From the NCBI RefSeq assembly GCF_000473225.1, contig NZ_KI421509.1:3490868-3554867 (forward strand): a stretch of DNA of 64,000 nucleotides, in the 5' to 3' direction. The number at the start of each line of letters is the position of its first letter. Position 1 is the stretch's first letter. The notes under the pieces were generated by a model, which was not told the origin of the DNA, made no database searches, and saw only the letters and a program-made list of their open reading frames with translations. This DNA comes from Sedimentitalea nanhaiensis DSM 24252 (lineage in GTDB: Bacteria; Pseudomonadota; Alphaproteobacteria; Rhodobacterales; Rhodobacteraceae). Made by a program: the position numbers and the translations under genes. This document shows positions 5,841 through 52,688 of this stretch, piece after piece.

Positions 5841-5873
5841 GCGTACAGATGTTGTACATACCCCGTACATACA
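5841..5873. repeat. Array of three 11-bp CGTACATA-type units (copy A)
   Basis: Three contiguous 11-bp units: GCGTACAGATG (5841-5851), TTGTACATACC (5852-5862) and CCGTACATACA (5863-5873). The core TACATA recurs exactly every 11 bp, one helical turn. The array sits between two convergent genes, 50 bp past the CoA-binding gene and 33 bp past hisE, so it is not in a normal promoter position. A second array of the same kind is at 52656. Function unknown. Confidence 0.6.
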
Positions 5874-5905
5874 CTGTGAGGCTCGGACCTGCTGTGGACC
5901 CGATT

Positions 5906-6223
5906 CTACTGCGCCTTACGCCCGGATTTTTCTGCGATGCCGCTGACGCCCTGCCGACGGGCCAGTTCGTTCAGAACGTCTGACAGGGGCACGTCGCGCG
6001 CGGCCAGCATGACCAGCAGGTGATAGAGCACGTCGGCGGCCTCGGATGTGAGCGCGGCGCGGTCGCCCTTGACCGCTTCGATGATCGCCTCGACCGCTTC
6101 TTCGCCGAATTTTTCAGCACATTTCTCGGGGCCCTTGGCCAACAGCCTGGCGGTCCAGCTGCTGTCAGGGTCGGCATCCTTGCGGGCGGCAATGGTTTCG
6201 GCAAGCTCGGTCAGAATGCTCAT
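5906..6223 (-). CDS. hisE: Phosphoribosyl-ATP pyrophosphatase
   Basis: 105 residues. It catalyses the second step of histidine synthesis, releasing pyrophosphate from phosphoribosyl-ATP. It is a MazG-like all-alpha protein with the acidic metal-binding helices typical of His[21 protein letters not shown] and [15 protein letters not shown]. Its ATG overlaps the hisF stop as ATGA, so the two are translationally coupled. It is a stand-alone HisE, not fused to HisI. Confidence 0.95.
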
Positions 6224-6981
6224 GTCAGCCTCATTGGGATGCCGGCGGCGGCCATATGCTGTTTGGCCTCACCGATGGTGAAGTCGCCGAAATGAAAGAT
6301 CGACGCGGCCAGCACGGCGCTGGCACCGCCCTCGGTCACGCCCTGCACCAGGTGATCCAGCGTACCGACACCGCCGCTGGCGATCACCGGCACGCTTACC
6401 GCGTCCGATATGGCACGGGTCAGGGGCAGATTGAACCCGGCGCGGGTGCCGTCGCGATCCATGCTGGTTAACAGGATTTCGCCCGCGCCTTTTGCGGTCA
6501 CGGTGCGCGCAAACTCCACTGCGTCGATGCCGGTGGGTTTGCGCCCGCCATGGGTGAAGATTTCCCATTTTCCGGGGCTGACGGTCTTGGCGTCGATGGC
6601 GACAACGATGCACTGGCTGCCAAACTGATCGGCGGCTTCGGCCACGACGTCAGGGCGGGCCACGGCGGCCGAGTTGAACGACACTTTGTCAGCCCCGGCC
6701 AGCAGCAGGTCGCGCACGTCTTCGCGGCTGCGCACACCCCCGCCGACGGTCAGCGGGATGTAACACTGCTCGGCGGTGCGCTGCACCACGTCGAACATGG
6801 TGCCGCGGTTTTCATGGGTGGCGTGGATGTCCAGAAAGCACAGCTCGTCGGCCCCGGCGGCGTCATAGGCACGGGCGGATTCCACCGGGTCGCCGGCATC
6901 GACGAGATCGACGAAATTGACACCCTTGACCACGCGGCCATCGGCAACGTCGAGACAGGGGATGATGCGGGTCTTGAGCAT
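6220..6981 (-). CDS. hisF: Imidazole glycerol phosphate synthase, cyclase subunit
   Basis: 253 residues, a full-length TIM barrel. The N-terminus [20 protein letters not shown] is diagnostic and contains the catalytic Asp (CLDV). The other catalytic Asp lies in [15 protein letters not shown], and the phosphate loops are VGGGVRS and [12 protein letters not shown]. It closes the imidazole ring using ammonia from HisH, whose gene is 43 kb away on the same strand. I chose 6981 because AAAGGA lies 7 nt upstream; the frame is open further upstream but without family sequence. Confidence 0.96.
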
Positions 6982-7102
6982 GTCCGGTCCTTTTGAGCCA
7001 TGTCCTAATCGCAAAATCGCGCCGATACCAGAGAAGTGATTGGACCCGTCCCGCCGGGCATGAAGACATGCGGGTCATCGGATAAACGGAAAGGAGTTCG
7101 AC

Positions 7103-7555
7103 ATGCGTGGACATATCATTCTGGCGGCGGCGGTTGCGCTGGCGGGGGCCGGACAGGCCGGGGCGGATGATCTGGTACGGGTCAAGACCGGCAAATCGGT
7201 GGATGCGGCGATGGACGCGTTGCAGGCGGCGGTCGAAGGGGCCGGGGCAACGGTGTTCGCGCGCGTCGATCATGCCGCGGGCGCACGCGGCGCGGGCCTT
7301 GAAATGAACGATGCCGAACTGCTCATCTTCGGCAATCCCAAGCTGGGCACGCCGGTGATGCAGGCCGACCCCCTGGCCGGGCTGTTCCTGCCGCTGAAGG
7401 TGCTGGCCTATGCCGATGGCGACGGGCAGGTCTGGCTGGCCTATCAGGACCCCGCCGAAATGCTGGACGATCTGGCGGTCGACGACGATTTGCCGGCGAT
7501 CGGCAAGATGCAGGGTGCGCTGGACAAGCTGACGGCCAAAGCGGCGGGCGGCTGA
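7103..7555 (+). CDS. Exported DUF302-domain protein
   Basis: 150 residues with a signal peptide (cleavage near GQAGADD). The rest is a DUF302 fold: VDAAMDALQAAVEGAGATVFARVDHAAGA, then LLIFGNPKLGTPVMQADPLAGLFLP and WLAYQDP. DUF302 proteins are small alpha/beta sandwiches of unresolved function, mostly periplasmic. GGAG lies 7 nt before the ATG. It is inserted on the plus strand between hisF and hisA, which are both on the minus strand. A second DUF302 gene is at 30869. Confidence 0.85.
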   Translation: MRGHIILAAAVALAGAGQAGADDLVRVKTGKSVDAAMDALQAAVEGAGATVFARVDHAAGARGAGLEMNDAELLIFGNPKLGTPVMQADPLAGLFLPLKVLAYADGDGQVWLAYQDPAEMLDDLAVDDDLPAIGKMQGALDKLTAKAAGG

Positions 7556-7559
7556 GTGG

Positions 7560-8282
7560 TCAGCCCCTCAGCGTTGCCAGGGCCTGTTTCAGGTCCAGCG
7601 CGCCGTCATAAAGCGCCCGGCCCGAGATCGCGCCGTTCAGCGCAACGCCACAATCGCGTAGCGCGATGAGGTCATCCAGAGAGGACACCCCGCCCGAGGC
7701 GATCACCGGGATCGAAACCGCGCGGGCCAGCGCGGCGGTGGCCGCGACGTTGGGGCCCTGCATCGCGCCGTCGCGGTTGATGTCGGTATAGATGATGGCG
7801 GCGACGCCCGCGTCTTCGAACGATCTTGCCAGATCGGTGACGTTCACGTCGGTTTTCTCGGCCCAGCCCTTGGTGGCGACCATGCCGTTGCGCGCGTCGA
7901 TACCGACCGCGACCTGGCCGGGAAAGGCGCGGGCCGCCTCGCGCACCAGATCGGGGTTTTCCACCGCCACGGTGCCCAGGATGACGCGGGCCAGACCCTT
8001 GGAAAGCCAGCTTTCGATGGTGGCCATGTCGCGGATGCCGCCGCCCAGCTGGGCGGGCACGTCACAGGCGGCCAGAATCGCCTCGACCGGGGCGGCGTTG
8101 ACCGGTGTGCCAGCAAAGGCACCGTTCAGATCGACCAGATGCAGCCACTCGCATCCGGCCTCGACAAAGGCGCGGGCCTGGGCGGCGGGGTCGTCGTTGA
8201 ATACGGTGGCCTGCTCCATCTCGCCGCGCACCAGGCGCACGGCTTGTCCATCTTTCAGGTCGATTGCGGGATAGAGGATCAT
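7560..8282 (-). CDS. hisA: Phosphoribosylformimino-5-aminoimidazole carboxamide ribotide isomerase
   Basis: 240 residues, the usual HisA length. It performs the Amadori isomerisation that feeds HisF/His[21 protein letters not shown] at the N-terminus holds the first catalytic Asp. [29 protein letters not shown] (second catalytic Asp) and [12 protein letters not shown] are all present. The ATG at 8282 has AAAGG upstream; the longer open frame to 8567 has no family sequence. Confidence 0.96.
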
Positions 8283-8413
8283 TGGGGGGCCTTTCGCGAC
8301 AGTTTGGCCGCGATATGGCACGGGGCGGGGCGGGATTGCAACGCGCCGCAAGATCAGGCTTGCCACGGCGCCCGGGGCGAGGTCAGATTGCGTCAAGCAG
8401 AGGAGGCGGCCGG

Positions 8414-8812
8414 ATGAGGCGGATCGGGAAGAAAATCGTTTTGGGAGCCGTGGTGGCATTGGGTCTGGCCGGGGGGGCGATGGCGGACCCGGTTGAGGGC
8501 ACCTGGCAGACCGAAGTGGATGACGGTGCCTATGCGCATGTGGCGATGGCCCCCTGCGGCGGCGCATTCTGTGGCACGATGGTGCGCACGTTCAACAGCG
8601 GGGGCGAGTACAAATCGCCCAATATCGGCAAGAAGCTGATCCTCGACATGGTGCCACAGGGTGATGGAACCTACAAAGGCAAGGCTTGGAGGCCGTCCAA
8701 TGGCAAGACCTATATCGGCAAGATGACCCTGAAGGGCGACACGCTGTACCCGGCGGGCTGTGTTCTGGGCGGGTTGCTGTGTTTCGATCAGACCTGGACC
8801 CGGATCAAGTAA
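8414..8812 (+). CDS. Exported DUF2147-domain protein
   Basis: 132 residues. The signal peptide ends near [10 protein letters not shown]. The mature domain begins [17 protein letters not shown] and holds four cysteines (CGGAFCG and CVLGGLLC) that could form disulfides. The sequence [21 protein letters not shown] is typical of DUF2147, a small lipocalin-like fold. AGGAGG lies about 7 nt before the ATG at 8414. It neighbours hisA on the opposite strand. Function is unknown in the family. Confidence 0.85.
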
Positions 8813-8825
8813 CTGTCGCGACGGG

Positions 8826-9839
8826 TCAGCCGCCACAGATGCTTTGCAGCAGCACCCAGTCGCGGTCGCTGAGTACGGGGGCGGGGGATTGTCCGGCCAT
8901 CGGGTCGGCTTCGATCAGGGGCAGAACAGATTCGCCGGTGATGTCGCGGGCATAGGCATAAGGCGTCGACGGGACTGCGGTGGCGGCAAAGGCCTGCAAC
9001 AGCGGCGCGTCCGGCAATGGTGCGGCGGGCGCGACAAGCACGGTTTCGCCATAGTTATCGAGGCTTTCGCGGCTTAGCTTGCCGGTCGTGAGCAACTGGA
9101 AGGTCGCAAACGGCCCGCTGGCCCGCAGCAGGGCCGCCAGCGGGTCCGCCCCCTGGGCGCGGGTGCGTTCGGCAAGGATATAGCCCGCGACGACCGCCGG
9201 GTCCTCAAAATCTTCGATCAGGGCCTTGTTGAGCAGTACGATGCCGCCGGGCAGGTGGCGTGCATCAGCAAGCCCGGTGCGCAGAACCACCAGTTTTCGC
9301 ACCTTGGTGCGGCGCGCGAGCCGGGCCAGAACCGGCGCGGTATCGGTGGATGCGCAGGCCCGCCCGGCCACCCGTTCGATGCGCCCCAAAAGGGAAAGGC
9401 CAATGGCCTGGCGCTGGATCTGGGGCACGACATTGACCGCGTGGCGCGTCAGCGCCCCGGGCAGCCACAGCAGCAGGGCGGCGGCGACAACCACGATCAC
9501 GGTCAGGGTGCTGGCCATCCGCAGACGGCCCGGCCGGGGCCTGGCGCGTTCGATGGCCAGGCGCAGCTTTTCGATGGCGGCCACCATGTCGGTTTCGTTC
9601 TCGGCAATCTCAAGCGTCTCGCCGGGATCGCCGTCCGGCGCATAGATCGCGGGCAACGTGCCTGGATTCAGCCGGTCCAGCGCCGCCAGCGACCAATGGG
9701 CCAGAGGGCGGTCGCGCATGTCGGAAATGGTCAGCGTCGCCTCGCCGATCGACAGGACGACTTCGCGGCGCTGTTCTTCGGGACCGGGACGCCAAAGGCC
9801 CGAAGCCTCGAGCCGTTCGTATTCCTTGAGTGCCGTCAT
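8826..9839 (-). CDS. Membrane-anchored protein with degenerate M48-like peptidase motif
   Basis: 337 residues. Residues 1-100 are a cytoplasmic domain (PLAHWSLAALDRLN). One membrane helix follows at about 107-127 (STLTVIVVVAAALLLWLPGAL), then a large outer domain. In the outer domain, GGIVLLNKALIEDFEDPAVV followed by AGYILAERTR parallels the M48 arrangement, where HExxH would fall at the AGYILAE position. All three zinc-site residues are replaced. It may be an inactive peptidase relative. The alignment is by eye. It is likely monocistronic. Confidence 0.6.
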   Translation of the reverse strand: MTALKEYERLEASGLWRPGPEEQRREVVLSIGEATLTISDMRDRPLAHWSLAALDRLNPGTLPAIYAPDGDPGETLEIAENETDMVAAIEKLRLAIERARPRPGRLRMASTLTVIVVVAAALLLWLPGALTRHAVNVVPQIQRQAIGLSLLGRIERVAGRACASTDTAPVLARLARRTKVRKLVVLRTGLADARHLPGGIVLLNKALIEDFEDPAVVAGYILAERTRAQGADPLAALLRASGPFATFQLLTTGKLSRESLDNYGETVLVAPAAPLPDAPLLQAFAATAVPSTPYAYARDITGESVLPLIEADPMAGQSPAPVLSDRDWVLLQSICGG

Positions 9840-9930
9840 GATTTGACTGTACCGCGCCTGTATTTCTGCGCGGGTCTAGCATGGCGGTCAGGCGTGCGGC
9901 AAACCGCTTTGCACCGCTGAGGCCGACGCA

Positions 9931-11556
9931 TCATGCGGTGGCGGCGATCTGGCGCAGCTCGAATTTCTGGATCTTGCCGGTCGAGGTCTTGGGCAGTTCC
10001 TGAAACACCACCCGCTTGGGGGTTTTAAAGCCCGCGAGGGTTTCGCGTGTGAATGCGATCAGATCGGCCTCGGTGGCGCTGGCACCGGGTTTGAGTTCGA
10101 CAAAGGCGCAAGGCACCTCGCCCCATTTTTCATCCGGTTTGGCGACGACGGCGGCCAGCAGCACGTCGGGGTGTCCCATCAGCACGCCTTCGATCTCGAC
10201 CGAGCTGATGTTTTCGCCGCCCGAGATGATGATGTCCTTGGCCCGGTCGGCGATCTGGATATAGCCATCGGCATGCTGCACCGCGATGTCGCCCGTGTGA
10301 AAATAGCCGCCCTTGAACGCTTCGGCGGTGGCCTCGGGGTTTTTCAGATAGCCCTTCATCACGCCATTGCCGCGCATCACGATTTCGCCCTGTGCGACCC
10401 CGTCCATCGGGATTTGGCCCATCTGATCGTCCACCACGGTGATATGTTCCATGAACGGCATGGCCACGCCTTGCCGGGCTTTGATCGCGGCGCGTTCCTT
10501 GCCCTCTAAATGATCCAGATGCGGCCCCCAGGTGCATTCGGTCGCCGGGCCGTATACCTCGGTCAGCCCATAGACCTGGGTGACGTGAAAGCCCATCGGT
10601 TCGATTTTCGCCAGCGTGGCCGGGGCGGGGGGCGCACCGGCGGTAAAGACCTGAACCGTGTGATCAAAGCTGCGGCGTTCGCTGTCGGGCGCGTTGACCA
10701 GCATGTTCAGCACGATGGGTGCGCCGCCGAAATGGGTCGCGCCTTCGTCGGCGATGGCGTCAAAGATCGCCGGAGCGGTGATGTCGCGGCAGCAGACAAT
10801 TGTGCCCCCGACCATGGGCATCATCCACGTATGGCACCAGCCGTTGCAATGAAACAGCGGCACGATGGTCAGATAGCGCGGGCGCAGCACCATGCCCCAG
10901 CTGATCACCTGACCCATCGCGTTCAGATAAGCGCCGCGATGGTGATAAACCACGCCCTTGGGGCGTCCGGTGGTGCCGCTGGTATAGTTCAGCGCAATGC
11001 TTTCCCATTCGTCCTGCGGTAGAATCCAGTCAAAATCGTGAGGTGCATTGCCCAGCACCTGTTCATAGGTGGCGTGGCGACCGCTGGCCGGGTGACCGGC
11101 GGGCATGTCGGGGACTTCGATGATCAGCGGAGCGCGGCCCTCAAGCCGCTTGATTGCGGTCTCGGCCAGTTCGAGGAACTGGCTGTCCACCAGAACGACC
11201 CGGGCGCCGCCGTGTTGCAGAATATAGGCCACCGTGCCCACATCCAGCCGGGTGTTGATCGCATTCAGCACCGCGCCGCAGGCAGGCACACCAAAATGCG
11301 CCTCGGCATGGGCGGGGATGTTGGGCAGAATCGTGGCCACCACATCGCCAGGCTCAACACCCATGCCCGCCAGAGCCGAGGCCAGCCGGGTGCAGCGGTC
11401 GTAATGCTCGGCATAGGTCTTGCGGTGCGCTCCGTAGACCACGGCCATCTCATCGGCAAAGACATGCGCCGCCCGGCGCAGCGCGGACAGCGGCGTCAGC
11501 GGCACATGGTTCGCGGCGGTTTTTTCCAGCCCGGTTTCATCTTGCATCCAGCCCAT
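9931..11556 (-). CDS. Acyl-CoA synthetase (AMP-forming), DmdB-like
   Basis: 541 residues, full length. It activates an acid to its CoA thioester through an acyl-adenylate. The P-loop-like A3 motif is YTSGTTGRPKGV, A5 is QVYGLTEVYGPAT, A7/A8 are YFHTGDIAVQHADGYIQIADRAKDII shortened here to GDIAVQHADG and DRAKDIIISGGE, and the catalytic Lys is in KTSTGKIQK near the end. The N-terminus resembles the roseobacter methylmercaptopropionate-CoA ligase family (DmdB) from memory, but other medium-chain acids are possible, so no symbol is given. It is divergent from the sulfotransferase gene. Confidence 0.92.
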   Translation of the reverse strand: MGWMQDETGLEKTAANHVPLTPLSALRRAAHVFADEMAVVYGAHRKTYAEHYDRCTRLASALAGMGVEPGDVVATILPNIPAHAEAHFGVPACGAVLNAINTRLDVGTVAYILQHGGARVVLVDSQFLELAETAIKRLEGRAPLIIEVPDMPAGHPASGRHATYEQVLGNAPHDFDWILPQDEWESIALNYTSGTTGRPKGVVYHHRGAYLNAMGQVISWGMVLRPRYLTIVPLFHCNGWCHTWMMPMVGGTIVCCRDITAPAIFDAIADEGATHFGGAPIVLNMLVNAPDSERRSFDHTVQVFTAGAPPAPATLAKIEPMGFHVTQVYGLTEVYGPATECTWGPHLDHLEGKERAAIKARQGVAMPFMEHITVVDDQMGQIPMDGVAQGEIVMRGNGVMKGYLKNPEATAEAFKGGYFHTGDIAVQHADGYIQIADRAKDIIISGGENISSVEIEGVLMGHPDVLLAAVVAKPDEKWGEVPCAFVELKPGASATEADLIAFTRETLAGFKTPKRVVFQELPKTSTGKIQKFELRQIAATA

Positions 11557-11668
11557 GTCATCCTCCGCAATGGATTTGGTTTCGGCGTGATACTGCGACG
11601 CGGGCGCGGCAAAGAAAAGCCCGCGTTGAGATCATTGCGATTGGCGTTGATTCCGCTAGCCTGTACCC

Positions 11669-12334
11669 ATGATCCTGAGCACCGGTCGCCGTTTTGTATT
11701 CATTCATATTCCCAAGACCGGTGGAACCTCACTGGCCATGGCGCTAGAGGCGCGGGCGATGAAGGATGACATCCTGCTGGGGGACACGCCCAAGGCGCAC
11801 AGACGGCGGCGGCGATTGAACACCGTCGCCGCGCGGGGCCGGTTGTGGAAACATGCGACGATGGCGGATATTGACGGTCTGGTGCCCGGTCCGGATCTGG
11901 AGGGGCTGTTTGCCTTTACTCTGGTGCGCAATCCCTGGGACCGGGCGGTCAGTTATTACCACTGGTTGCAGGGGCAGAGCTTTGACCATCCGGCGGTGGA
12001 CCTGGCGCGGCGATTGCCGTTTGACGCCTTTGCGACCCATGCGCAGACGCGGGACGGGTTCCGGGCCTGGCCGGCGGCGCGCTATATGCGCCGGGCGGAT
12101 GGGGTCGAACAGTGTAGCGCCTATATCCGGATCGAGCGGTTTGAACGCGATGCCGCGTCTCTGATGGCCCATCTGGGGTTCGATCTGACCCTGCCGCGTC
12201 TGAACGCATCGCAACGGGACCGGGACTATCGGCGGTATTATACGGACGCTGCCGCGGATGCGGTTGCTGACAGCTGCGCCGAGGATATCGCGCGGTTCGG
12301 CTATGGGTTCGGCGCGCTCGACCCGGCGGGCTGA
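11669..12334 (+). CDS. Sulfotransferase-family protein
   Basis: 221 residues. The 5'-phosphosulfate-binding loop of PAPS-dependent sulfotransferases is FIHIPKTGGTSLAMAL at residues about 10-25. The 3'-phosphate-binding motif is TLVRNPWDRAVSYYHW at about residue 85. These enzymes transfer sulfate from PAPS to sugars, lipids or proteins; the acceptor cannot be told. No signal peptide or membrane segment is seen, so it should be cytoplasmic. It may be cotranscribed with the gene at 12418. Confidence 0.88.
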   Translation: MILSTGRRFVFIHIPKTGGTSLAMALEARAMKDDILLGDTPKAHRRRRRLNTVAARGRLWKHATMADIDGLVPGPDLEGLFAFTLVRNPWDRAVSYYHWLQGQSFDHPAVDLARRLPFDAFATHAQTRDGFRAWPAARYMRRADGVEQCSAYIRIERFERDAASLMAHLGFDLTLPRLNASQRDRDYRRYYTDAAADAVADSCAEDIARFGYGFGALDPAG

Positions 12335-12417
12335 TGCCGCTTGGATGGTCCGGGACGCTGTCGGCGGCTCTGGATCCGTGGTATGCTGGCGCAAATTTTC
12401 AGGCGCGGGAGGGTGTC

Positions 12418-13578
12418 ATGGTCGCATCCGGATTGACCCTTTTGCTGGGAACCACCAAGGGTGTTTTCCTGGCTTGCGGTGGACAGGACCGGGGCGGGTG
12501 GGCCGTTGAGGGCCCGTATTGCGACGGCTGGCCGATCAACCATATCATTGGCGACGCCGAAACCGGAACCCTGTGGGCCGGGGGCGGCGGCGAGTGGACT
12601 GGCGCGGGCGTCTGGAAATCGTGCGACGGCGGCGCCAGTTGGCAGAATGTGCGGTTGACCAAGGGCACGACGGATGACTGGGCAGCGAACGATCCCGATT
12701 TTGCGGCACTGATCGGTTGGACCGATCAACCTTTGCCCTTTGGCGACGAGTTCACCCAGATCTGGTCGCTGGCGCAGGCGCATGGCACGCTTTATGCCGG
12801 AACCAAGCCTGCTGGCCTGCTGGCCAGCAGGGACGGCGGCGAGACATGGCACCGGGTGCAGGGGCTGAGCGACCACCCCACGGCGCAGGGCTGGAACCCC
12901 GGCGCGGCGGGGCTGGTGCTGCACACCATCGTCAGCAATCCGGCGGATGCGCAAAAGCTGTGGGTCGGGATTTCGGCGGCGGGGGTGTTTGCGACCGAGG
13001 ACGGGGGCGCGACATGGGAGCGGCGCAACCGGCTGTCCAACGCCGGGGCTTGCGCGGGGCATGACCATCCGGCGGCACCGCGCGACGGAGAAACCGGACA
13101 TTGCGTGCACAACATGATGCGCGCCAATGGGACCGGGGATCTGCTGTATCAACAGAACCACCATGGCGTCTGGCGGTCCGGCGACGGCGGGCGCAGCTGG
13201 GAGGACATCACGCCGGGGTTGCCGTCGACCTTTGGATTTCCGATTCGGGTGCATCCGCGCGATCCGGATACAATCTGGACCCTGCCGCTGAATGGCGACA
13301 GCACCGGGCGCTATCCGCCGGATGCGGCGGCGGCGGTGTGGCGGTCGCGCGACGGCGGGCAAAGCTGGCATGATCTGCGCGCTGGCCTGCCACAGCAAAG
13401 CTGTTTCTTTACGGTGCTGCGCCAGGCGATGGCCGGAGACGCGCGTGACCCGGCGGGGGTCTATTTTGGCACCAACAGCGGGTCGGTGTTTGCCAGCCTG
13501 GATGAGGGCGACACATGGGACGAAATTGTCCGTCACTTGCCGACCATTCTGGCCGTCGAGGCGATGGACCGCGCCTGA
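12418..13578 (+). CDS. BNR-repeat / sialidase-fold beta-propeller protein
   Basis: 386 residues. Repeated Asp-box (BNR) motifs are visible: SCDGGASWQ, SRDGGETWH, TEDGGATWE, SGDGGRSWED, SRDGGQSWHD and LDEGDTWDE. They are spaced 45-80 residues apart as in a multi-bladed propeller. It has no signal peptide and begins MVASGLTLLLGTTKGVFLA, typical of cytoplasmic exo-alpha-sialidase-like proteins of unknown role. The start at 12418 has GGGAGG six nt upstream. Catalytic sialidase residues were not identified. Confidence 0.85.
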   Translation: MVASGLTLLLGTTKGVFLACGGQDRGGWAVEGPYCDGWPINHIIGDAETGTLWAGGGGEWTGAGVWKSCDGGASWQNVRLTKGTTDDWAANDPDFAALIGWTDQPLPFGDEFTQIWSLAQAHGTLYAGTKPAGLLASRDGGETWHRVQGLSDHPTAQGWNPGAAGLVLHTIVSNPADAQKLWVGISAAGVFATEDGGATWERRNRLSNAGACAGHDHPAAPRDGETGHCVHNMMRANGTGDLLYQQNHHGVWRSGDGGRSWEDITPGLPSTFGFPIRVHPRDPDTIWTLPLNGDSTGRYPPDAAAAVWRSRDGGQSWHDLRAGLPQQSCFFTVLRQAMAGDARDPAGVYFGTNSGSVFASLDEGDTWDEIVRHLPTILAVEAMDRA

Positions 13579-13598
13579 ACCCCGCGCCAGAAAGAAAA

Positions 13599-13618
13599 GG
13601 GGCGCATCGCTGCGCCCC
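13599..13618. terminator. Hairpin between convergent genes
   Basis: A perfect 8-bp stem, GGGGCGCA (13599-13606) with TGCGCCCC (13611-13618) around TCGC. It lies between the convergent stops of the propeller gene and the fadB/J-like gene. AAAGAAAAGG on its left gives a U-rich tract on the minus strand, so it should work best for the minus-strand gene. Confidence 0.7.
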
Positions 13619-13644
13619 CGGGTCGATCCTTGGTGCGACCGGGA

Positions 13645-15843
13645 TCAGGCGGCCTGTGCCCTGGCGGCAAAGCGGCCATAGAACGTCTGGTTCTTTTCGG
13701 CCATTTCACGCAGCAGCGCCGGGCATTTAAACCGTTCGCCGAATTTGGCTTCGAGCTGATCGCAGCGTTCGGCCGCATAGGGCGCACCGAGAATATCGAG
13801 CCAGCTGAGCGGGCCACCGGACCAGGGTGCAAAGCCCCAGGCCAGGATCGCGCCCACGTCGGCTTCGCGGATGTCCTCGACCACGCCCTCTTCCAGCGCG
13901 CGCACGGCTTCCAGAACCTGGGCAAACATCAGCCGTTCCTGCACCTCGATCAGGTCGGGCTGCTCTTCGGCCAGCGGGTATTTGTCGTGGATGCCTTTCC
14001 AGTAGCCGAGACGCTTGCCCTTGTCGTCATAGTCGAAGTATCCGGCCTTGGATTTGCGGCCCAGACGGCCCAGATCTTCCATCCAGAACACCAGATCGTC
14101 CGCCTCGGATGCGGGATAGTCATTGCCCATCGCCTCTTTGGTGGCGCGGGTGATCTTGGCGGCAAGATCGATGCTGGTTTCATCGCCAAGCTGGATCGGA
14201 CCCACCGGGAAGCCCAGCTGTTGCGCCGCGTGGTCGATCAGCACCGGCGCGACACCCTCGGTGACCATGCGGGCCGCTTCGTTGCCGTAGGGGATGATGC
14301 AGCGGTTGCAGTAGAAGAACCGCGCGTCGTTGACCACGATCGGCGTCTTGCGGATCTGGCGCACATAATCCAGCGCCTTGGCGACGGCGCGCGGGCCGGT
14401 TTCGCGGCCCTTGATGATCTCGACCAGCAGCATCCGTTCGACGGGCGAGAAGAAGTGGATGCCGATGAACTGCTCGGGGCGTTTGGAGGCCTTGGCCAGC
14501 CCGGTGATCGGCAGGGTCGAGGTGTTGGAGGCAAAGATGCAATCCTCGGGGATGATCGCTTCGACTTTCTGGGTCATCTCGGCCTTGACCTTGGGGTCTT
14601 CGAACACCGCCTCGATGATCAGATCGCAGTCTTTCAACTGGTCGAGATCCGGCGTCGCGGTGATGAGACCCAGCATCGTCTCTTTCTTTTCGGGGGTGAT
14701 CTTTTTACGCGCGATGCCCTTGTCCAGATAGGCTTCGGTATAGGCCTTGCCCTTGTCGGCCGCAGCCTGATCACGGTCGATCAGGATCACCTGCATGCCC
14801 GCCTGCGCGCTGACCAGCGCGATGCCCGCGCCCATCATGCCCGCCCCCAGAACGCCGAGTTTCTTGACCCGCTGATCCGGCACGTCCTTGGGACGGACCG
14901 CACCTTTCTCAAGCGCTTCCTTGTTCACGAACAGCGAGCGGATCATGGCGCTGGAGCTGGGATTCATCAGCACGTTGGTGAACCAGCGCGCCTCGATCTT
15001 GAGCGCGGTGTCAAATGGCACCAGCGCGCCTTCATAGACCGCGCTGAGCAGCGCCTTGGCGGCGGGGAAAGCGCCCTGGGTCTTGCCGTGTACCATAGCG
15101 GTGGCGCCGACAAAGGTCATGAAACCGGCCGGATGATAGGGGGCTCCGCCGGGCATTTTATAACCTTTGGCATCCCACGGCTTGACCAGATCGGCATCCT
15201 TGGCATTCAGCACCCAGTCGCGGGCTGCGGCGACCGGGTCGGCGGTTACCTCATCGATCAGACCGGCGGCCTTGGCCTTGTCAGGTGCGACCAGTTTGCC
15301 TTCGAGCAGGAAGGACGAAGCGCCCATCACGCCCAGCTTGCGCACCAGACGGGTGGTACCGCCGCCGCCGGGAAAGATACCGACCAGGATTTCCGGCAGG
15401 CCGATCTTGGCCTTGGAATTGTCGGCGGCAAAGATGCGGTGGGTCGCCAGCGGCAGTTCGAGGCCAATACCGACTGCGGTGCCGGGCAGGGCGGAGGCAA
15501 TCGGCTTGCCGCCCTTGTTGGTCTTGGGGTCCATGCCGGCGCGCTCGATCTTGCGCAGGACGGTGTGCATCTGCATGACGCCGTCAAACAGCCCCTGTGC
15601 CGGGTTGTCGCCGGCCGCATCGCGCATCGCGCCCAGTTCGTTCAGGTCCATGCCGCCGGCGAAATCCGCCTTGCCGCTGGTGATGACGATGCCCTTGACC
15701 GCATCATCCGCCAGCGCTTGGTCGATCAGGTCGTCCAGCACGCGGAAGGCTTCGGTCTTCATCACGTTCATGGTCAGGCCGGGGCAATCCCAGGTGATGA
15801 TGGCGACGCCGTCGGCGTCTGTCTTCATGGTGAAATCAGTCAT
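13645..15843 (-). CDS. Fatty-acid oxidation multifunctional enzyme (enoyl-CoA hydratase / 3-hydroxyacyl-CoA dehydrogenase)
   Basis: 732 residues, the usual size for FadB/FadJ alpha subunits. The crotonase domain fills residues about 1-190 ([40 protein letters not shown] with catalytic Glu). The NAD-binding domain starts at about 325 with [15 protein letters not shown]. It contains [12 protein letters not shown] and the catalytic-His segment [12 protein letters not shown]. Two C-terminal dehydrogenase domains follow. It catalyses steps 2 and 3 of beta-oxidation with the thiolase encoded 23 bp upstream on the same strand. Confidence 0.93.
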
Positions 15844-41631: not shown

Positions 41632-41635
41632 GAAC

Positions 41636-42980: not shown

Positions 42981-42982
42981 CG

Positions 42983-44943: not shown

Positions 44944-44952
44944 GGGGTCGGC

Positions 44953-46774: not shown

Positions 46775-48464
46775 GCAGATCCCCACCGCATTCCTGTACT
46801 TTCTGGCGGCGCTCGCCTTGCCGGTGCTGCCCCGCGGCGCAATCCGCGGTGTTGTGCTGCTGGCGATACCGGCGATCGCAGCCTTGCAGGTCTGGTCCTT
46901 GCCGTTGGGCAATCTGGTGCAGCTCGAGTTTTTTGGCTTTTCACTGGATCTGATGCGGGTCGACAAGCTGAGCCGGGTTTTTGCGCTGATTTTTTGTATC
47001 GCCGCGTTTCTGGGTAATCTCTACGCGTGGCATGTGCGCGATATCGTACAGCAGGTCGCGGCGCTGATGTATGCAGGTGCGGCCATCGGGGCGGTGTTTG
47101 CGGGCGATCTGATCACCCTGTTTTTCTATTGGGAAGGCACCGCGATTTCCTCGGTCTTTCTGATCTGGGCAAGGAGGACGGTGGGGTCGTTTCATACCGG
47201 CATGCGGTATCTGATCATTCAGGTCGGATCGGGTGTGATCCTGCTGGCCGGGGTTATCCTGATGTATGTGGATACCGGCAGCATCGCCTTTGAGCGCATG
47301 GAGCTTGGTAGCCCGGCGACCTGGCTGATCTTTCTCAGCTTCGGGATCAAATGTGCCTTTCCGTTGCTGCACAACTGGCTACAGGACAGCTATCCGGCGG
47401 CAACTGTCACAGGCACGGTGATCCTGTCGGCTTTTACCACCAAGCTGGCGGTATATGCCTTGGCGCGTGGGTTCGCGGGCACCGAAATCCTGATCTATAT
47501 CGGCGCGATCATGACGCTGTTCCCGATTTTCTTTGCCGAGATTGAAAACGATCTGCGCCGGGTGCTGGCCTATAGCCTGAACAACCAGTTGGGGTTCATG
47601 GTCGTGGGCATCGGCATCGGCACCGAGATGTCGCTGAACGGCACCGCCAGCCATGCTTTTGCGCATATCCTGTACAAGGCGCTGTTGTTCATGAGCGTGG
47701 GGGCGGTGATGTTCCGAACCGGCACATCCAAGGCGTCGGAGCTGGGCGGGTTGTATCGCACCATGCCGCGCACCGCCATGTTCTGTCTCGTCGGTGCCGC
47801 GTCGATCTCGGCCTTTCCGCTGTTTTCGGGGTTTGTCACCAAATCGCTGGTTATGAGCGCCACGGCGGAAGAGAATTACCCGTGGATCTGGGCCATTATG
47901 CTGTTTGCCTCGGCGGGTGTTCTCAGCCACTCGGGCATCAAGATTCCGTATTTCACCTTTTTCGCCCATGACAGTGGCAAACGTCCCAAAGAGGCACCGG
48001 TGCACATGCAACTGGCCATGGGCATCACCGCAGCCCTGTGCATCCTGATCGGCATCTTTCCTGAACCGCTGTATGCTCTGCTGCCATATGAGGTCGAATA
48101 TCAGCCCTATACCGTGGGGCATGTGGTGACGCAGCTGCAGTTGTTGTGCTTTGCGCTTCTCGCCTTCTGCTTCCTGATGCGCACCGGCATTCATCCGGCA
48201 GAGATCCGGGCCATAAATCTGGACACCGATTGGACCTATCGGCGGATGCTGCCCCGCCTGATCCAATGGCTGTCCGGCCCGGTGGGCGGGATTTTCAAGG
48301 GCATCGAAATCCTGAAAACCACATGGCTGAAAGGGATGATCATCACCCTGTACCACTCATTCGGCCCGCAGGGACGGACGTCACAGTTCTGGCCAACCGG
48401 TGCGATGGTGCTTTGGATCGCTGTTCTGTTGGGGATCACGCTGATGGTAAGCTATGCCAGCTGA
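46767..48464 (+). CDS. Third large antiporter subunit, NuoN/MrpD-like
   Basis: 565 residues. The TM5 Glu (TLFFYWEGTAISSVFLIW) and TM7 Lys (FGIKCAFPLLHNWLQDSYPA) are kept, as is the helix-12 region ENDLRRVLAYSLNNQLGFMV, where the usual Lys is replaced by Arg. The C-terminus is long and has YHSFGPQGRTSQFWPTG. It starts at 46767, eight bases inside the previous gene. Retention of the acidic and basic pathway residues suggests it can move protons. Confidence 0.88.
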   Translation: MLEQIPTAFLYFLAALALPVLPRGAIRGVVLLAIPAIAALQVWSLPLGNLVQLEFFGFSLDLMRVDKLSRVFALIFCIAAFLGNLYAWHVRDIVQQVAALMYAGAAIGAVFAGDLITLFFYWEGTAISSVFLIWARRTVGSFHTGMRYLIIQVGSGVILLAGVILMYVDTGSIAFERMELGSPATWLIFLSFGIKCAFPLLHNWLQDSYPAATVTGTVILSAFTTKLAVYALARGFAGTEILIYIGAIMTLFPIFFAEIENDLRRVLAYSLNNQLGFMVVGIGIGTEMSLNGTASHAFAHILYKALLFMSVGAVMFRTGTSKASELGGLYRTMPRTAMFCLVGAASISAFPLFSGFVTKSLVMSATAEENYPWIWAIMLFASAGVLSHSGIKIPYFTFFAHDSGKRPKEAPVHMQLAMGITAALCILIGIFPEPLYALLPYEVEYQPYTVGHVVTQLQLLCFALLAFCFLMRTGIHPAEIRAINLDTDWTYRRMLPRLIQWLSGPVGGIFKGIEILKTTWLKGMIITLYHSFGPQGRTSQFWPTGAMVLWIAVLLGITLMVSYAS

Positions 48465-48562
48465 GGCAGTCCCTGGGCGGCGTTAAAGGTCTGGAAATGC
48501 TGCGCAGGCCGGTGCATGGTGCGTAAATACTTGCCTTGTTACCGAAATATTGGACCGCTGCC

Positions 48563-49930
48563 ATGACCCTGCACCCCAACTCAGCCGAAGCCCGCGACGT
48601 CGCTTATCACCTGCATGGATATACCAATGCGCGTGCCCATCAACAGACTGGACCGGTGGTGATCGAGCGGGGCGAGGGTGCTTATGTCTACGACAGCGAA
48701 GGCAACCGGTATTTCGAGGGCATGGCCGGGTTGTGGAGCACCGCCGTCGGCTTTAGCGAGCGGCGCCTTGCACAGGCGGCGGCGCGGCAGATGGAGAAGC
48801 TGCCCTATTACCACAGCTTTGGCGGCCGCTCGCACGGGCCGGCCATCGATCTTGCGGAAAAGCTGATCGAACTCGCGCCGGTGCCCATGAGCAAGGTATT
48901 CTTTACCAATTCTGGGTCCGAGGCCAACGACACCGTGCTCAAACTGCTGTGGTATCGATCCAACGCCATGGGCCAGCCACACCGCAAGAAGGTCATCAGC
49001 CGGCTGCGTGGTTATCACGGGGTCACCATCGCCTCGGCCAGCATGACGGGCCTGCCGATCAACCACGCGTCGTTTGATCTGCCGATTGCCAATGTGCTGC
49101 ACACCGGCTGTCCGCACCATTATCGCGAGGGGCTGGAGGGTGAGAGTGAAGAGCAGTTTGCCACCCGTTTGGCGGACGATCTCGAAGCGATGATTCAGGC
49201 CGAGGGGCCGGAAACCGTGATGGCCTTTATCGCCGAGCCGGTGATGGGCGCGGGGGGCGTTGTGGTCCCCCCGGCGACCTATTGGGACAAGATCCAGCAG
49301 GTGCTGAACCGGCACGATATCCTGCTGATCGCGGATGAGGTGATCTGTGGCTTTGGCCGTACCGGGCAGATGTTTGGCTCGCAGACCTATGGTATGAAAC
49401 CGGACATCCTGGTGATGTCCAAACAACTGACCTCGACCTATTTCCCGCTGTCCGCATTCATGATCAACGCGCGTGTGTTCGAACCGATCGCCGACGAAAG
49501 CAACCGGATCGGCGTTCTGGGCCACGGGTTCACCGGTGCCGGGCATCCGGTTGGCGCAGCCATCGCACTGGAAAACCTCGCCATCATCCAGGAGCGCGAC
49601 CTGGTGGCCAATTCGGCAGAGGTCGGCGGCTATTTGCAGGCCGAACTGCGCACGCTGGCGGACCATCCTCTGGTGGGCGAGGTGCGCGGCGTCGCCCTGA
49701 TTGCAGGGATCGAACTGGTACTGGACAAGGCCGCCAAGACAGCGGCGGAAACGCCGGGCAAGCTGGGCGGGTATGCGGCAGCAAGGTTGTTCGAACACGG
49801 CGTGATTTCACGGGCGGCAGTGGATACCATCACCCTGTGCCCGCCCCTGATCGTGACGCGATCCGACATTGATGGATTGCTGGTTGCCCTGCGCAAATCT
49901 CTGGATGAAACGCTGGTCGAATTTGGTTGA
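48563..49930 (+). CDS. Class III PLP-dependent aminotransferase
   Basis: 455 residues. Pyridoxal-phosphate Lys lies in DILVMSKQLTSTYFPLSAF at about residue 285. The cofactor Asp motif is LLIADEVICGFGRTGQMFGS and the substrate-loop motif is FFTNSGSEANDTVLKLLWY with RLRGYHGVTIASASMTG. The family includes omega-amino acid:pyruvate and putrescine or taurine aminotransferases. No neighbour settles the substrate. Start at 48563 puts MTLHPNSAEARD at the N-terminus; the extra upstream codons look unconserved. Confidence 0.9.
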   Translation: MTLHPNSAEARDVAYHLHGYTNARAHQQTGPVVIERGEGAYVYDSEGNRYFEGMAGLWSTAVGFSERRLAQAAARQMEKLPYYHSFGGRSHGPAIDLAEKLIELAPVPMSKVFFTNSGSEANDTVLKLLWYRSNAMGQPHRKKVISRLRGYHGVTIASASMTGLPINHASFDLPIANVLHTGCPHHYREGLEGESEEQFATRLADDLEAMIQAEGPETVMAFIAEPVMGAGGVVVPPATYWDKIQQVLNRHDILLIADEVICGFGRTGQMFGSQTYGMKPDILVMSKQLTSTYFPLSAFMINARVFEPIADESNRIGVLGHGFTGAGHPVGAAIALENLAIIQERDLVANSAEVGGYLQAELRTLADHPLVGEVRGVALIAGIELVLDKAAKTAAETPGKLGGYAAARLFEHGVISRAAVDTITLCPPLIVTRSDIDGLLVALRKSLDETLVEFG

Positions 49931-49942
49931 GGCCGGTTGGAC

Positions 49943-50581
49943 CTATGGAGTCCAGCGCAAGAAATTGGCAATCATCCGGAGGCCCGCCGCCTGACTTTTC
50001 TCGGGATGGAACTGCATCCCGAGCATGGTGCCCCGACCGATCACGGCGGTGACATCTCCGCCATAATCCACATGCGCGAGCCGCTGGGCGGGATCGGCGA
50101 CGTGGAACTGGTAGGAATGCACGAAATAGGCGTGATCGCCCGTCTCGATGCCGTCGAACACAGGGTGCGGCGTGTCGATGACCAGATCGTTCCAGCCCAT
50201 GTGCGGCACCTTCAGGGCTGCATCTGCGGGCGTGATACGAACCACCTCGCCCTTGACCCAGTCCAACCCGGGCGAATCTTCGTATTCGCGGCCCCAACTG
50301 GCCATCAGTTGCATGCCGACGCAGATGCCCAGAAAGGGGCGGGCGCGGATTTCGACCGCTTCGACCAGGGCATCGAACAGCCCCGAATGGTCGCGCAGGG
50401 CGGCTGCGCAGGCGGGAAAGGCACCGTCGCCGGGCAGGACCACACGATCGGCGCGGGCCACCACGTCTGCGTCACCCGTTACCACAACCGTGCCGGCGTC
50501 CACCTCGCGGGCCATGCGCTGAAACGCCTTTTCGGCGGAATGCAGGTTGCCGCTTTCGTAATCGACGATCGCTGTCAGCAT
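49943..50581 (-). CDS. hisH: Imidazole glycerol phosphate synthase, glutaminase subunit
   Basis: 212 residues. AIVDYESGNLHSAEKAFQRM starts the class I glutamine amidotransferase fold. The nucleophile Cys is in PFLGICVGMQLMASWG (about residue 81). The His and Glu of the triad are in MLGMQFHPEKSQAAGL near the C-terminus. It supplies ammonia to HisF. hisB lies 4 bases upstream on the same strand. The usual downstream partners hisA and hisF are 41-43 kb away. Confidence 0.96.
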   Translation of the reverse strand: MLTAIVDYESGNLHSAEKAFQRMAREVDAGTVVVTGDADVVARADRVVLPGDGAFPACAAALRDHSGLFDALVEAVEIRARPFLGICVGMQLMASWGREYEDSPGLDWVKGEVVRITPADAALKVPHMGWNDLVIDTPHPVFDGIETGDHAYFVHSYQFHVADPAQRLAHVDYGGDVTAVIGRGTMLGMQFHPEKSQAAGLRMIANFLRWTP

Positions 50582-50585
50582 CGCA

Positions 50586-51173
50586 TCACAGCGCGCCTTT
50601 GGTGGACGGCACGGCATCGGCCTTGCGCGGATCGATCTCGACCGCCTCGCGCAGGGCGCGGGCCACGGATTTGAACGCCGCTTCGGCGATGTGATGGCTG
50701 TTCAGCCCGTGCAGCCGGTCCACGTGCAGTGTGATGCCGCCATGTGTCGAGAGCGCCTGAAAGAATTCGCGCACCAGTTCGGTGTCAAACGTGCCGATCT
50801 TGGGTGTTGGCAGATCCACGTTCCAGATCAGGAACGGGCGCGCCGACAGATCCAGCGCCGTGCGCACCTGCGCGTCGTCCATCGGCAACAGGCAGGCACC
50901 GTACCGGCGAATGCCGCGCTTGTCGCCCAGGGCCTGCGCCAGGGCCTGTCCCAGCGCGATCCCGACGTCCTCGACCGTGTGATGATCGTCGATGTGCAGA
51001 TCGCCGGTGGCGCGGATCGTCAAGTCGACCAGCGAATGGCGGGCCAACTGATCCAGCATGTGGTCAAAGAACCCCACACCGGTCTTGTTGTCATAGGCCC
51101 CGGTGCCGTCCAGGTCGATCTGCACGGTAATGTCGGTTTCTGCGGTCTTACGGGTGATGGTGGCGCTGCGCAT
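50586..51173 (-). CDS. hisB: Imidazoleglycerol-phosphate dehydratase
   Basis: 195 residues, the single-domain form without the phosphatase. [40 protein letters not shown] and [20 protein letters not shown] supply the His/Glu metal ligands. It carries out the seventh step of histidine synthesis. AGGA lies 8 nt upstream of the ATG at 51173. It heads a two-gene operon with hisH. Confidence 0.96.
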
Positions 51174-51340
51174 GGTGCTGTCCTGTCTGCTTGGGCCGCT
51201 TATAGGGCCAGCGGGGCTGGGTTCCAAGCGGTTCCGGGCCCGTCACGCCCTGCCTGTGGCTGCCAAGCCGCGACAGCAGGGGATTGCACCCTGACGCGCG
51301 TCGTGCCAGCGTGCCCGCAAACCAGAAATGAGGCCACCCG

Positions 51341-51580
51341 ATGACCACCTGCGTCTATATTCAGCTGCGCTGCAAACCCGGCACCACCTACAAGGTGGCG
51401 GAAGAAATCGCCCTGCGTGAAATCCATTCCGAGCTTTATTCGACCAGTGGCGAATATGATCTGCTGATGAAGCTGTATATTCCGGGTGACGCGGATGTGG
51501 GGAAGTATATCAACGAGAATCTGCTGAGCATTCCGGGAATCGAACGCTCGCTGACAACGATCACGTTCAAGGCGTTCTAA
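51341..51580 (+). CDS. Stand-alone Lrp/AsnC ligand-binding domain (RAM) protein
   Basis: 79 residues. It has only the AsnC-type ligand domain (TTCVYIQLRCKPGTTYKVAEE, STSGEYDLLMKLYIPG, IPGIERSLTTITFK) and no HTH, so it cannot bind DNA by itself. Such solo domains assemble into rings and bind amino acids. GAGG lies about 7 nt before the ATG. It diverges from hisB with 167 bases between starts. Confidence 0.88.
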   Translation: MTTCVYIQLRCKPGTTYKVAEEIALREIHSELYSTSGEYDLLMKLYIPGDADVGKYINENLLSIPGIERSLTTITFKAF

Positions 51581-51602
51581 CGCCGGACGGGAAAAACGGC
51601 GC

Positions 51603-51624
51603 GCTTGTCCACGTCAGGACAAGC
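51603..51624. terminator. Hairpin after AsnC-domain gene
   Basis: GCTTGTCC (51603-51610) pairs with GGACAAGC (51617-51624) around ACGTCA. It lies 22 bases past the AsnC-domain stop. No U-tract follows, so the call is modest. Confidence 0.4.
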
Positions 51625-51710
51625 CTGCCGACATGGCATTGAAGCTTGGACATTTTATTTGTCTCTACCGACCCCGGCGGCGCCCCATTTCCGATCGTGT
51701 CTGGTGAAAA

Positions 51711-51785
51711 TGGAGCGGGCGATGAGATTCGAACTCACGACCCTAACCTTGGCAAGGTTATGCTCTACCCCTGAGCTACGCCCGC
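51711..51785 (-). tRNA. tRNA-Gly (anticodon GCC)
   Basis: Read on the minus strand: acceptor GCGGGCG with CGCCCGC, discriminator T and CCA. D-arm AGCTCAGGGGTAGAGC, anticodon loop TTGCCAA with GCC (complement at 51751-51753), and T-arm GTGAG-TTCGAAT-CTCAT. All arms are regular with a short variable loop, 75 bases including CCA. It stands alone. Confidence 0.97.
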
Positions 51786-51940
51786 GTCCTTGGGTGAGGC
51801 GTGAGATATAAACAACTGACCGAACCCGCAAGAGGAAAAACAAAGAGAATCGTAAAAAAAATTGACCCGCCGCACGACGGATCCGGCGTGGTCATGCGTT
51901 GAACATCGTAACACCAGGTCAAAGGCGGGAAGGGAATGCG

Positions 51941-52102
51941 ATGATCTGCCGGGAAACGGTCAAATTGGGTATTCTGATCAGCTGCATCTGCGTGGCTCTG
52001 GCGCTGCCGGATACGCAGGAGAGGCAGGCTTTGCTATCCACGGGGTTCAGCGGGCCGCCTGCCGTAAAGACGCAGAAGATCGAGCCGCGCCGGGTCATGT
52101 GA
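51941..52102 (+). CDS. Candidate 53-residue small exported or membrane protein
   Basis: ATG at 51941 has AAGGGA about 7 nt upstream. The product has a basic start, one hydrophobic stretch (VKLGILISCICVALALP) and a polar tail (TQKIEPRRV). It could be a short secreted peptide or a small membrane protein. No family recognised. It lies between the tRNA-Gly and the YjbR-type gene. Confidence 0.45.
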   Translation: MICRETVKLGILISCICVALALPDTQERQALLSTGFSGPPAVKTQKIEPRRVM

Positions 52103-52205
52103 GCGCCAGCCCCGGTTGCGCGGCGCGTCGGAGGCGTGCCATATCAACCCTGCACCGGGCGTCGCGATGGACGTCGGGCAGGGGCGCAAACAGGGGCAGG
52201 CTGGC

Positions 52206-52559
52206 ATGACACGCGAGGAATTCAACCTATTTTGCAAGGGTTTGCCTCAGACCACGCATGTGGTGCAATGGGGCAATGCCGATGTCTGGAAGGTCGGCGG
52301 CAAGGTGTTTGCGATCTGCGGCTGGGCCGATGGCGAGGACGCGTTCACCTTTAAGGTCAGCGAGATCGCGTTCGAGGTTCTGGGCGATATGCCGGGCATC
52401 CGGCCCGCGCCCTATCTGGCGTCACGCGGGATGAAATGGTTACAGCATTATGCGGCGCCGGGCCTGTCGGACGCCGAGTTGCAGCGCCACATCCGCCTGT
52501 CTTATGACATGATCGTTGCCAAGCTGACCAAGAAGCTGCGCGCCGAATTGGGGCTGTGA
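52206..52559 (+). CDS. MmcQ/YjbR-family protein
   Basis: 117 residues, the full single domain. It starts MTREEFNLFCKGLPQTTHVVQW, followed by DVWKVGGKVFAICGWADG and FEVLGDMPGIRPAPYLASRG, then WLQHYAAPGLSDAELQRHI. The family has a CyaY-like double-wing fold, and its role is unsettled (DNA-binding was proposed). The start at 52206 fits the usual N-terminus. It converges on pyc through a gap holding the 11-bp repeat array. Confidence 0.88.
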   Translation: MTREEFNLFCKGLPQTTHVVQWGNADVWKVGGKVFAICGWADGEDAFTFKVSEIAFEVLGDMPGIRPAPYLASRGMKWLQHYAAPGLSDAELQRHIRLSYDMIVAKLTKKLRAELGL

Positions 52560-52655
52560 CAGCTGGGGTGCGCAACAGTCTGTAAACCAAATTCGCGCGC
52601 TACGGCGATCGTGGCGTCAACGCCTGTGTGTCATGGTCAGGGTGCCGTATGGACC

Positions 52656-52688
52656 GCGTACATATCCTGGACATATGCCGTACATACG
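52656..52688. repeat. Array of three 11-bp CGTACATA-type units (copy B)
   Basis: GCGTACATATC (52656-52666), CTGGACATATG (52667-52677) and CCGTACATACG (52678-52688) are contiguous, with the ACATA core repeating every 11 bp. A fourth degenerate unit, CCGTATGGACC, sits at 52645-52655. It lies in a convergent gap, about 97 bases past the YjbR-type gene and 98 past the pyc stop, as does copy A at 5841. Function unknown. Confidence 0.6.

Follow-up and report, generated by a model that had tools for sequence, protein, structure and literature searches.

Directional arrays of 11-bp repeats associated with polar GC-skew domains in Sedimentitalea nanhaiensis and some of its relatives

Noc-binding sites, parS and matS are dispersed chromosomal sites for one structural protein and take the form of palindromes or single motifs; KOPS, Chi and Ter sites are polar chromosomal sequences; and REP/BIME and Correia-like elements are dispersed, intergenic and turned over, sometimes with long common flanks. 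No family of sites is known to us that marks both where a GC-skew domain begins and its direction in the manner described here for arrays of 11-bp direct repeats in Sedimentitalea nanhaiensis DSM 24252. Two of these arrays lie in the 64,000-bp stretch analyzed here as a whole (the window, C4:3490868-3554867 of a 4.95-Mb, seven-contig assembly). In architecture the nearest described sites are the ArcA boxes, which the excerpted text of PMC3798270 presents as 2–5 direct repeats with a centre spacing of 11 bp, bound cooperatively on one face of the DNA. For the Rhodobacterales, the excerpted text of PMC9836097 places core and gene transfer agent (GTA) genes at local GC-skew peaks, which it ascribes to codon choice; that excerpt discusses codons and GANTC methylation motifs and ties no array to the peaks. 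Literature searches returned no published description of such arrays among the matches listed (titles and abstract openings).

The arrays have the direct repeats of ArcA/PhoB-type operators, about 11 bp centre to centre, and we infer for them the same cooperative binding on one face; with the same 11-bp architecture as ArcA boxes, they may therefore work like such an operator at the level of DNA contact. Unlike these operators, they are not promoter-linked as a set, are dispersed over the chromosome with an excess in convergent gaps, and accompany a polar 10-kb domain. They are dispersed like Noc sites, parS and matS, but are directional, multi-unit and tied to strand asymmetry. They are polar like KOPS, Chi and Ter sites, but number about 30 long sites per genome, follow the local domain better than the replichore in their orientation, and have a domain that tracks the array between species. 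With REP/BIME and Correia-like elements they have in common that they are intergenic, turned over and sometimes set in long common flanks, whereas no terminal inverted repeats were seen in the gaps read and the direct-repeat core drifts. The likeness to iterons is one of form only. Finally, strong local skew at core genes is found here as in the excerpted account of Rhodobacterales skew peaks, but in the present case its start and direction are marked by an array.

The array family and its polar domain

The three-unit pattern of the window arrays matches 20 places in the whole S. nanhaiensis genome (14 forward, 6 reverse) against none for a reversed-pattern control, and the two-unit pattern gives 50 matches against 7. 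A 48-column profile (R1), built from 28 of the 30 sites with L020 and L051 left out, returns 30 matches at E ≤ 1.6e-4, two of which are the window arrays and 28 of which lie elsewhere; the next match has an E of 0.70, and the set looks discrete rather than a continuum. As the profile search scored 150 of 509 first-look candidates, faint members may have been missed. The preliminary description of the window arrays had staked its reading on copies beyond chance level, an excess in convergent gaps and conservation in relatives. Copies do occur far above chance, and the shuffles, the gap in profile E values and the reversed-pattern controls rule out chance as the source of the arrays. All 30 sites lie on C4 (4.41 Mb, taken as the chromosome) and none on the six other contigs (537 kb); a plasmid or phage element was rejected on this ground, the lone plasmid match being short and chance-like (24 bp, E 6). 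Exact GTACATA triples occur in seven viral contigs, and the core type of the congener G106 in none. A structured RNA was ruled out by the lack of any Rfam match at the arrays of 20 loci (17 from S. nanhaiensis, 3 from G106), where the sole match, a tRNA, lies about 180 bp away from the L323 array.

When aligned, the sites have a degenerate first unit resembling GTATGGCA / GTATGGCAGGC, followed by two to three GTACATA units at 11-bp pitch, with CGC after the last unit and an A-rich triplet one turn ahead of the first. The 11-bp phasing, the discrete genome-wide family, a shift of core at orthologous sites and the failure to find arrays in two congeners (see below) all argue for a cooperative site on one DNA face, and we predict with high confidence that the arrays are a family of protein-binding sites. 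The preliminary description had proposed such a site, and this part is well supported by inference; it missed the main feature, a polar GC-skew domain of about 10 kb. Its other two proposals, a site that organizes the chromosome and an element acting in transcription conflicts, may still apply.

GC skew is positive on the array strand at 29 of 30 S. nanhaiensis 3-kb loci after removal of the array ± 60 bp (two-sided binomial 5.8e-8; 28 of 30 before removal), and at 18/18 8-kb loci in G106, 17/20 in G063 and 1/1 in G105, the last two being other genomes of the family. Averaged over 14 G063 arrays (C1:110-510 kb, located with a matrix from 20 G063 sites), the skew is near zero upstream of −2 kb, 0.037–0.065 from −2 to +10 kb, and near zero again beyond. 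The skew near these 14 arrays exceeds that upstream by 0.051, compared with 0.000 ± 0.013 at random positions (2 of 5,000 as large), and the corresponding excess for S. nanhaiensis arrays in the fetched blocks is 0.052, compared with 0.008 ± 0.010 (0 of 5,000); the difference is positive at 11 of 14 and 13 of 15 arrays, respectively. Array-free gaps whose downstream gene is directed at the gap average −0.008 in G063 (n = 144) and −0.005 in S. nanhaiensis (n = 175), and random draws of equal size yield means as high as those of the arrays in 1 and 0 of 10,000 cases, respectively. From 0 to +8 kb, fourfold sites show raised skew in genes of either strand. Taken together, the arrays very probably carry a linked polar domain from about −2 to +8 or +10 kb, with skew raised by about 0.05 in two genera and by less in a third, mostly also where this opposes the replichore trend. 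The sites tend to point into some 10 kb of G-over-C excess, as if a one-way process were launched from them.

The replichore was considered as an orientation rule, since 19 of the 25 sites outside 0.45-0.7 Mb are co-oriented with replication, but local skew fits orientation better (29/30). Reversed skew forms a local island around six of the seven arrays counted against their replichore (238k-, 3281k-, 3344k-, 1734k+, 1932k+ and 2157k+). Inversions were rejected as the source of the islands, no inverted match being among those of at least 250 bp listed for the collinear 80 kb (that region only), and no single short skewed oligomer stood out as a source of the skew.

Orthologous DNA allows array presence to be compared on the same genes. 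Four congeners align collinearly with the S. nanhaiensis region 3,250-3,330 kb, namely G106, G151, G150 (up to about 3,308 kb) and G149 (up to about 3,272 kb). (Pfam/NCBIfam was run at one locus, that of an 82-aa ParB_N-like gene discussed below; elsewhere, genes were named by eye.) The lpdA array of G106/G151 is accompanied, at aligned sites, by a skew of +0.063/+0.052 over G150 and +0.079/+0.068 over G149, and the S. nanhaiensis lpdA array by only +0.013 over G150 and +0.025 over G149. The minus-strand S. nanhaiensis array L018, read on the array strand, shows +0.053 over G150, +0.033 over G106 and +0.034 over G151. A minus-strand array on the rplQ side of G106/G151, absent from S. nanhaiensis and G150 in the stretches compared, shows +0.064/+0.050 over G150 and +0.089/+0.077 over S. 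nanhaiensis, and the S. nanhaiensis array L003 +0.026 over G150. All 14 comparisons are positive for the lineage with the array, 4 of the 14 not beyond the null. On the array strand, the ratio of C>G to G>C is 1.63 at lpdA and 1.83 on the rplQ side (both G106+G151), 1.37 at L018 and 2.45 at L003, and 0.74 for a control at 3284-3300 kb read on the minus strand. The mark resembles the ordinary leading-strand asymmetry, imposed locally in the direction of the array.

The 30 S. nanhaiensis sites occupy 11 convergent, 4 divergent and 15 tandem gaps, as typed from the calls of a custom gene finder that was trained on the window and is less reliable on other genomes. A stricter count began with 90 sites (30 from S. 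nanhaiensis, 18 from G106, 20 from G063, 18 from G131, 3 from G048 and 1 from G105), of which 8 were dropped as untyped (7 inside a called gene, 1 at a contig edge); the remaining 82 comprise 31 convergent, 11 divergent and 40 tandem. Background gaps of at least 60 bp are convergent in 30 of 173 cases in a 400-kb S. nanhaiensis sample and 29 of 210 in G063. Across the family, the convergent location seen for the two window arrays therefore survives as a roughly twofold excess; as a rule it is ruled out by the 11/30 count, since all gap types are occupied.

Possible mechanism and rival explanations

As an overall explanation we tentatively propose, at somewhat less than an even chance, that the arrays are polar cooperative sites of a lineage-specific factor that steers a strand-asymmetric DNA transaction. 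One protein subunit would sit on each 11-bp turn, side by side on one DNA face. The factor, a putative and presumably specific chromosome-wide protein, would be found only in some members of the Rhodobacteraceae. The bound array would launch or steer the transaction in the array direction, most likely as limited DNA synthesis or unwinding of the restart, recombination or iteron type, and over about 10 kb the array strand would then be leading or exposed, acquiring a substitution bias of the leading-strand kind. Local synthesis or unwinding is favored, since the mark looks like leading-strand bias and depends little on main fork direction; as the cause of the domain it is possible, though we would not expect it to prove right. 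A more speculative extension casts the scattered arrays as programmed points of polar entry for DNA synthesis or unwinding, whether as dormant or accessory origins or as restart or transfer-origin-like sites. Together with the main origin they would shape local strand asymmetry in their host genomes, and their recognition sequence would drift along with an easily lost factor. What is seen here is a short, portable sequence that marks the start of a domain and its direction; for the same genes, lineages that have the array differ from those that lack it. Should the array prove causal, moving 60 bp could alter strand asymmetry, DNA synthesis or transcription over 10 kb, and would offer a direct handle on strand composition and on chromosomal polar sites besides the origin, the terminus and KOPS.

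Several observations weigh against a steered transaction and its polar domain. Orientation is weaker in G131 (10/18) and G048 (2/3, both 8-kb loci) and in R542 (2/4), where the domain is also weaker (mean +0.027, 6/8 positive, one −0.06). AT skew shows no clear change across the domain, and simple C deamination is therefore not the whole story; the skew rises from about 2 kb upstream of the array, an onset not expected if initiation took place exactly at the array. Among the arrays contrary to their replichore, the 3281k island is weak and mixed, and the 686k+ array has no reversed island. The orthologue test covers four arrays, all in one 80-kb region, with null windows that overlap and contain other arrays (only 13 windows for G149). 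Within it, the S. nanhaiensis lpdA domain is weak (20/84 null windows against G150 are as large), L018 lies within the null against G106 and G151 (23/110 and 20/110 windows as large), and 8/92 null windows are as large as the rplQ-side difference between G106 and G150. The C>G/G>C ratio is 0.93 for the S. nanhaiensis lpdA domain, and a control upstream of lpdA also reaches 1.51. No cognate protein was found.

Some of the same data bear on other readings. If the arrays were a mobile or dispersed repeat of the REP or miniature inverted-repeat transposable element (MITE) kind, inserting with strand bias, the skew domain would be their landing place rather than their product. This would suit the turnover among congeners (L018 and L003 are present in S. 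nanhaiensis, and the corresponding gaps of G106, G151 and G150 are arrayless), the longer flanks common to L014, L032, L033 and L037, which hint that some copies spread as longer pieces, and the enrichment of GTTAAC near arrays, on both sides at some sites. We judge it unlikely, as array presence goes along with a shift at aligned orthologous sites, the domain is polar and has limits, the core differs at orthologous positions, and no terminal repeats or clean empty site were seen in three gaps read; at these three sites, each set against two to three arrayless congeners, the gaps differ without a clean junction or target duplication. The loading or anchoring of a chromosome-organizing protein (a ParB- or Noc-like spreading clamp, or a gyrase- or GapR-type 3′-end site) where highly expressed operons end is likewise an improbable account. 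Its scale of about 10 kb is like that of ParB spreading, and the convergent excess and the position of sites near gene 3′ ends, recurring beside lpdA, rplQ, gltD and the rpsP region, agree with it; known spreading is symmetric, however, and the domain here is polar, a strand asymmetry of substitutions needs strand-specific exposure, and plasmids of Microvirga and Ruegeria also carry the ParB_N-like gene that lies near one array.

Transcription driven from the array, or R-loops over about 10 kb with a transcription-coupled strand bias, would also yield a polar domain, and by fourfold-site counts per strand the genes just downstream are mostly directed at the array, so that transcripts in the array direction would be antisense. 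An effect that starts about 2 kb upstream and leaves AT skew unchanged makes this quite unlikely. Operators of an OmpR/PhoB-type transcription factor would have the 11-bp centre spacing and 2–5 repeats of ArcA-like boxes (excerpted text of PMC3798270), but the promoter location of such a regulon was not found: 31 of 82 typed sites are convergent and only 11 divergent, the neighbors look like unrelated housekeeping genes, and a 10-kb polar skew domain is not predicted, which leaves this reading little likelihood. Least probable to our minds is confounding by conserved core genes that lie in Rhodobacterales skew peaks, with codon choice as the cause. The excerpted text of PMC9836097 does place core genes in regions of extreme skew with codons having an excess of G over C, and apparent core genes are repeatedly found next to arrays. 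Yet orthologous genes shift with array presence, plus- and minus-strand genes shift alike on the array strand, and the effect is missing from array-free gaps matched for gene orientation.

As a source of the factor, a common neighbor gene was rejected, because no DNA-binding family stood out in 80 loci; the widest neighbor cluster there holds 6 open reading frames in 5 groups, including one that is ABC-ATPase-like by its match. A separate observation is the 82-aa ParB_N/sulfiredoxin-like protein encoded at L368:16435-16683 (minus strand; C4:3376438-3376683), about 500 bp from one array. Copies 79% identical lie beside an array in G106 and G151. None was found in G150 (85% complete) or in the fetched part of the other array genomes, and G149 has only a weak match inside a longer, 39%-identical frame. 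Pfam gives the protein no DNA-binding domain and a ParB_N match that stays below threshold, and with relatives on Microvirga and Ruegeria plasmids the gene is a weak lead only. Classical parS (≤2 mismatches) occurs at 2.49 Mb only, in two places.

The two window arrays and their flanks

The sequence readout confirms both arrays where they had been described, each with three units having a common GTACATA core at 11-bp pitch. There are no other copies in the window, as had been noted: the three-unit pattern at up to 3 mismatches matches twice, compared with 0 in 100 shuffles. The extent given earlier holds for the three units, although the site is longer, with a degenerate first unit 11 bp upstream. 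In array 1 (plus strand) this unit is ctgagccgggc at 5832-5842, a weak match in the column alignment of S. nanhaiensis sites, followed by GTACAGATGTT, GTACATACCCC and GTACATACA at 5843-5873 (C4:3,496,710-3,496,738; profile R1 E 2.3e-8). A gene for a CoA-binding-like protein (5321-5791, plus) ends 51 bp before the first GTACA unit, and a convergent hisE-like gene (5906-6223, minus) lies to the right. Array 2, also on the plus strand, begins with GTATGGACCGC at 52647-52657, placed by the same alignment, and continues with GTACATATCCT, GGACATATGCC and GTACATACG at 52658-52688 (C4:3,543,525-3,543,553; E 4.8e-9); it lies between an MmcQ/YjbR-like gene (52167-52559, plus) and a convergent pyruvate carboxylase-like gene directed at the array (52786-56226, minus). 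The predicted domains, from −2 to about +8 kb, span 3800-13900 and 50600-60700 on the plus strand, with positive skew on the array strand for array 1 and a downstream skew of 0.11–0.15 for array 2. Their limits derive from the multi-array averages and are not separately visible here, and the skew is positive in all 32 two-kb bins of the window.

In gap DNA within 150 bp of arrays, which totals 4,976 bp, the hexamer GTTAAC is found 14 times, compared with 4 times in 32,414 bp of sampled gaps. It lies within 200 bp of 10 of the 30 S. nanhaiensis sites, flanking both sides in 3 of 30, about 80–105 bp apart; three more sites have it on one side and a one-base variant on the other. Among relatives it is present at 3/7 loci of G151 (both sides in 2), 2/8 of G106 and 1/4 of G063, and at none of 10 loci of G131, G105 and G048. 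The arrays themselves are direct repeats, and at one site, L018, a hairpin-like sequence (GGCACAGGGCGG...CCGCCCTGTGCC; L018:1480-1600) directly adjoins the array.

Arrays in other genomes

Within the genus, R1 matches at E ≤ 0.1 number 30 in S. nanhaiensis, 26 in G106 and 23 in G151, and 0 in both G149 and G150 (the latter 85% complete), with 150 candidates scored per genome. Some loci are conserved in these relatives: DNA of S. nanhaiensis sites is matched by 5 of the 8 first-fetched sites of G106 and by 3 of the 7 of G151, one of the latter through a 79-bp match only. The lpdA gap holds an array in S. nanhaiensis, G106 and G151, and none in G149 and G150. By aligned identity G149 is nearest to S. 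nanhaiensis (0.848) and G106 pairs with G151 (0.854); G149, nearest yet arrayless, has therefore probably lost its arrays. The core differs by species, being GTACATA in S. nanhaiensis, GTGCAKA in G106 and ATGCANA/ATACATA in G063, and the shift is seen at the common lpdA site as well. A second repeat-like element, GGGGCTCTGCCCC...CCCCGGAGTATTT, is present in the lpdA gap of S. nanhaiensis, G106, G151 and the arrayless G150.

Drifted versions occur in a few other genera, and none was found in most sampled genomes. A degenerate triple pattern matches 14 of 149 genomes of the family, with 15 matches in S. nanhaiensis, 28 in G106, 76 in G063 (control 5), 18 in G131, 4 in G105, 5 in G048 and one in each of the other eight. 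At class level it matches 7 of 385 genomes (S. nanhaiensis 15, G283 18, G400 3 with a control of 9, G407 2, and three with one). R542 (G534) has 36 overlapping matches at up to 2 mismatches, compared with a control of 0. Arrays recur beside lpdA in S. nanhaiensis, G106, G151, G105 and G131, beside gltD in S. nanhaiensis, G106, R542 and G131/MAG-88, and beside a chorismate-mutase gene in S. nanhaiensis, G063 and G048. In G283, 9 of the 10 places listed (of 18) belong to a single tandem array and the other lies at a contig edge; this 0.8-Mb alphaproteobacterial genome carries a long perfect GTGCATAACCT tandem array at G283:C4:51048-51164.

Exact GTACATA triples were found in 87 stretches, most of the 80 listed being from Bacteroidota and Pelagibacteraceae. 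Outside the family these were rejected as the same element, since they show no clear link of orientation to skew (5 of the 80, with arrays on both strands, were set aside in this check) and many have near-identical spacers like those of tandem repeats. A metagenome-assembled genome of the Bacteroidota, Paludibacteraceae Horse_feces149, has dispersed, near-identical TATACGGTACA tandem arrays (L096, L103, L120, L121, L124, L128-L130, L136, L137, L140, L141, L147 and L150), several of them followed by a common ACAAATACTTGATGCTGA-like stretch. Bacteroidales Tb.RUG.238 (L087, L097, L106, L109 and L158) has paired inverted 11-bp GTACATATACT arrays, from which long hairpins look possible, and six Pelagibacteraceae isolates (L084, L091, L101, L123, L138 and L142) have near-identical stretches of GTACATAGTNN repeated three times and followed by a T-run.

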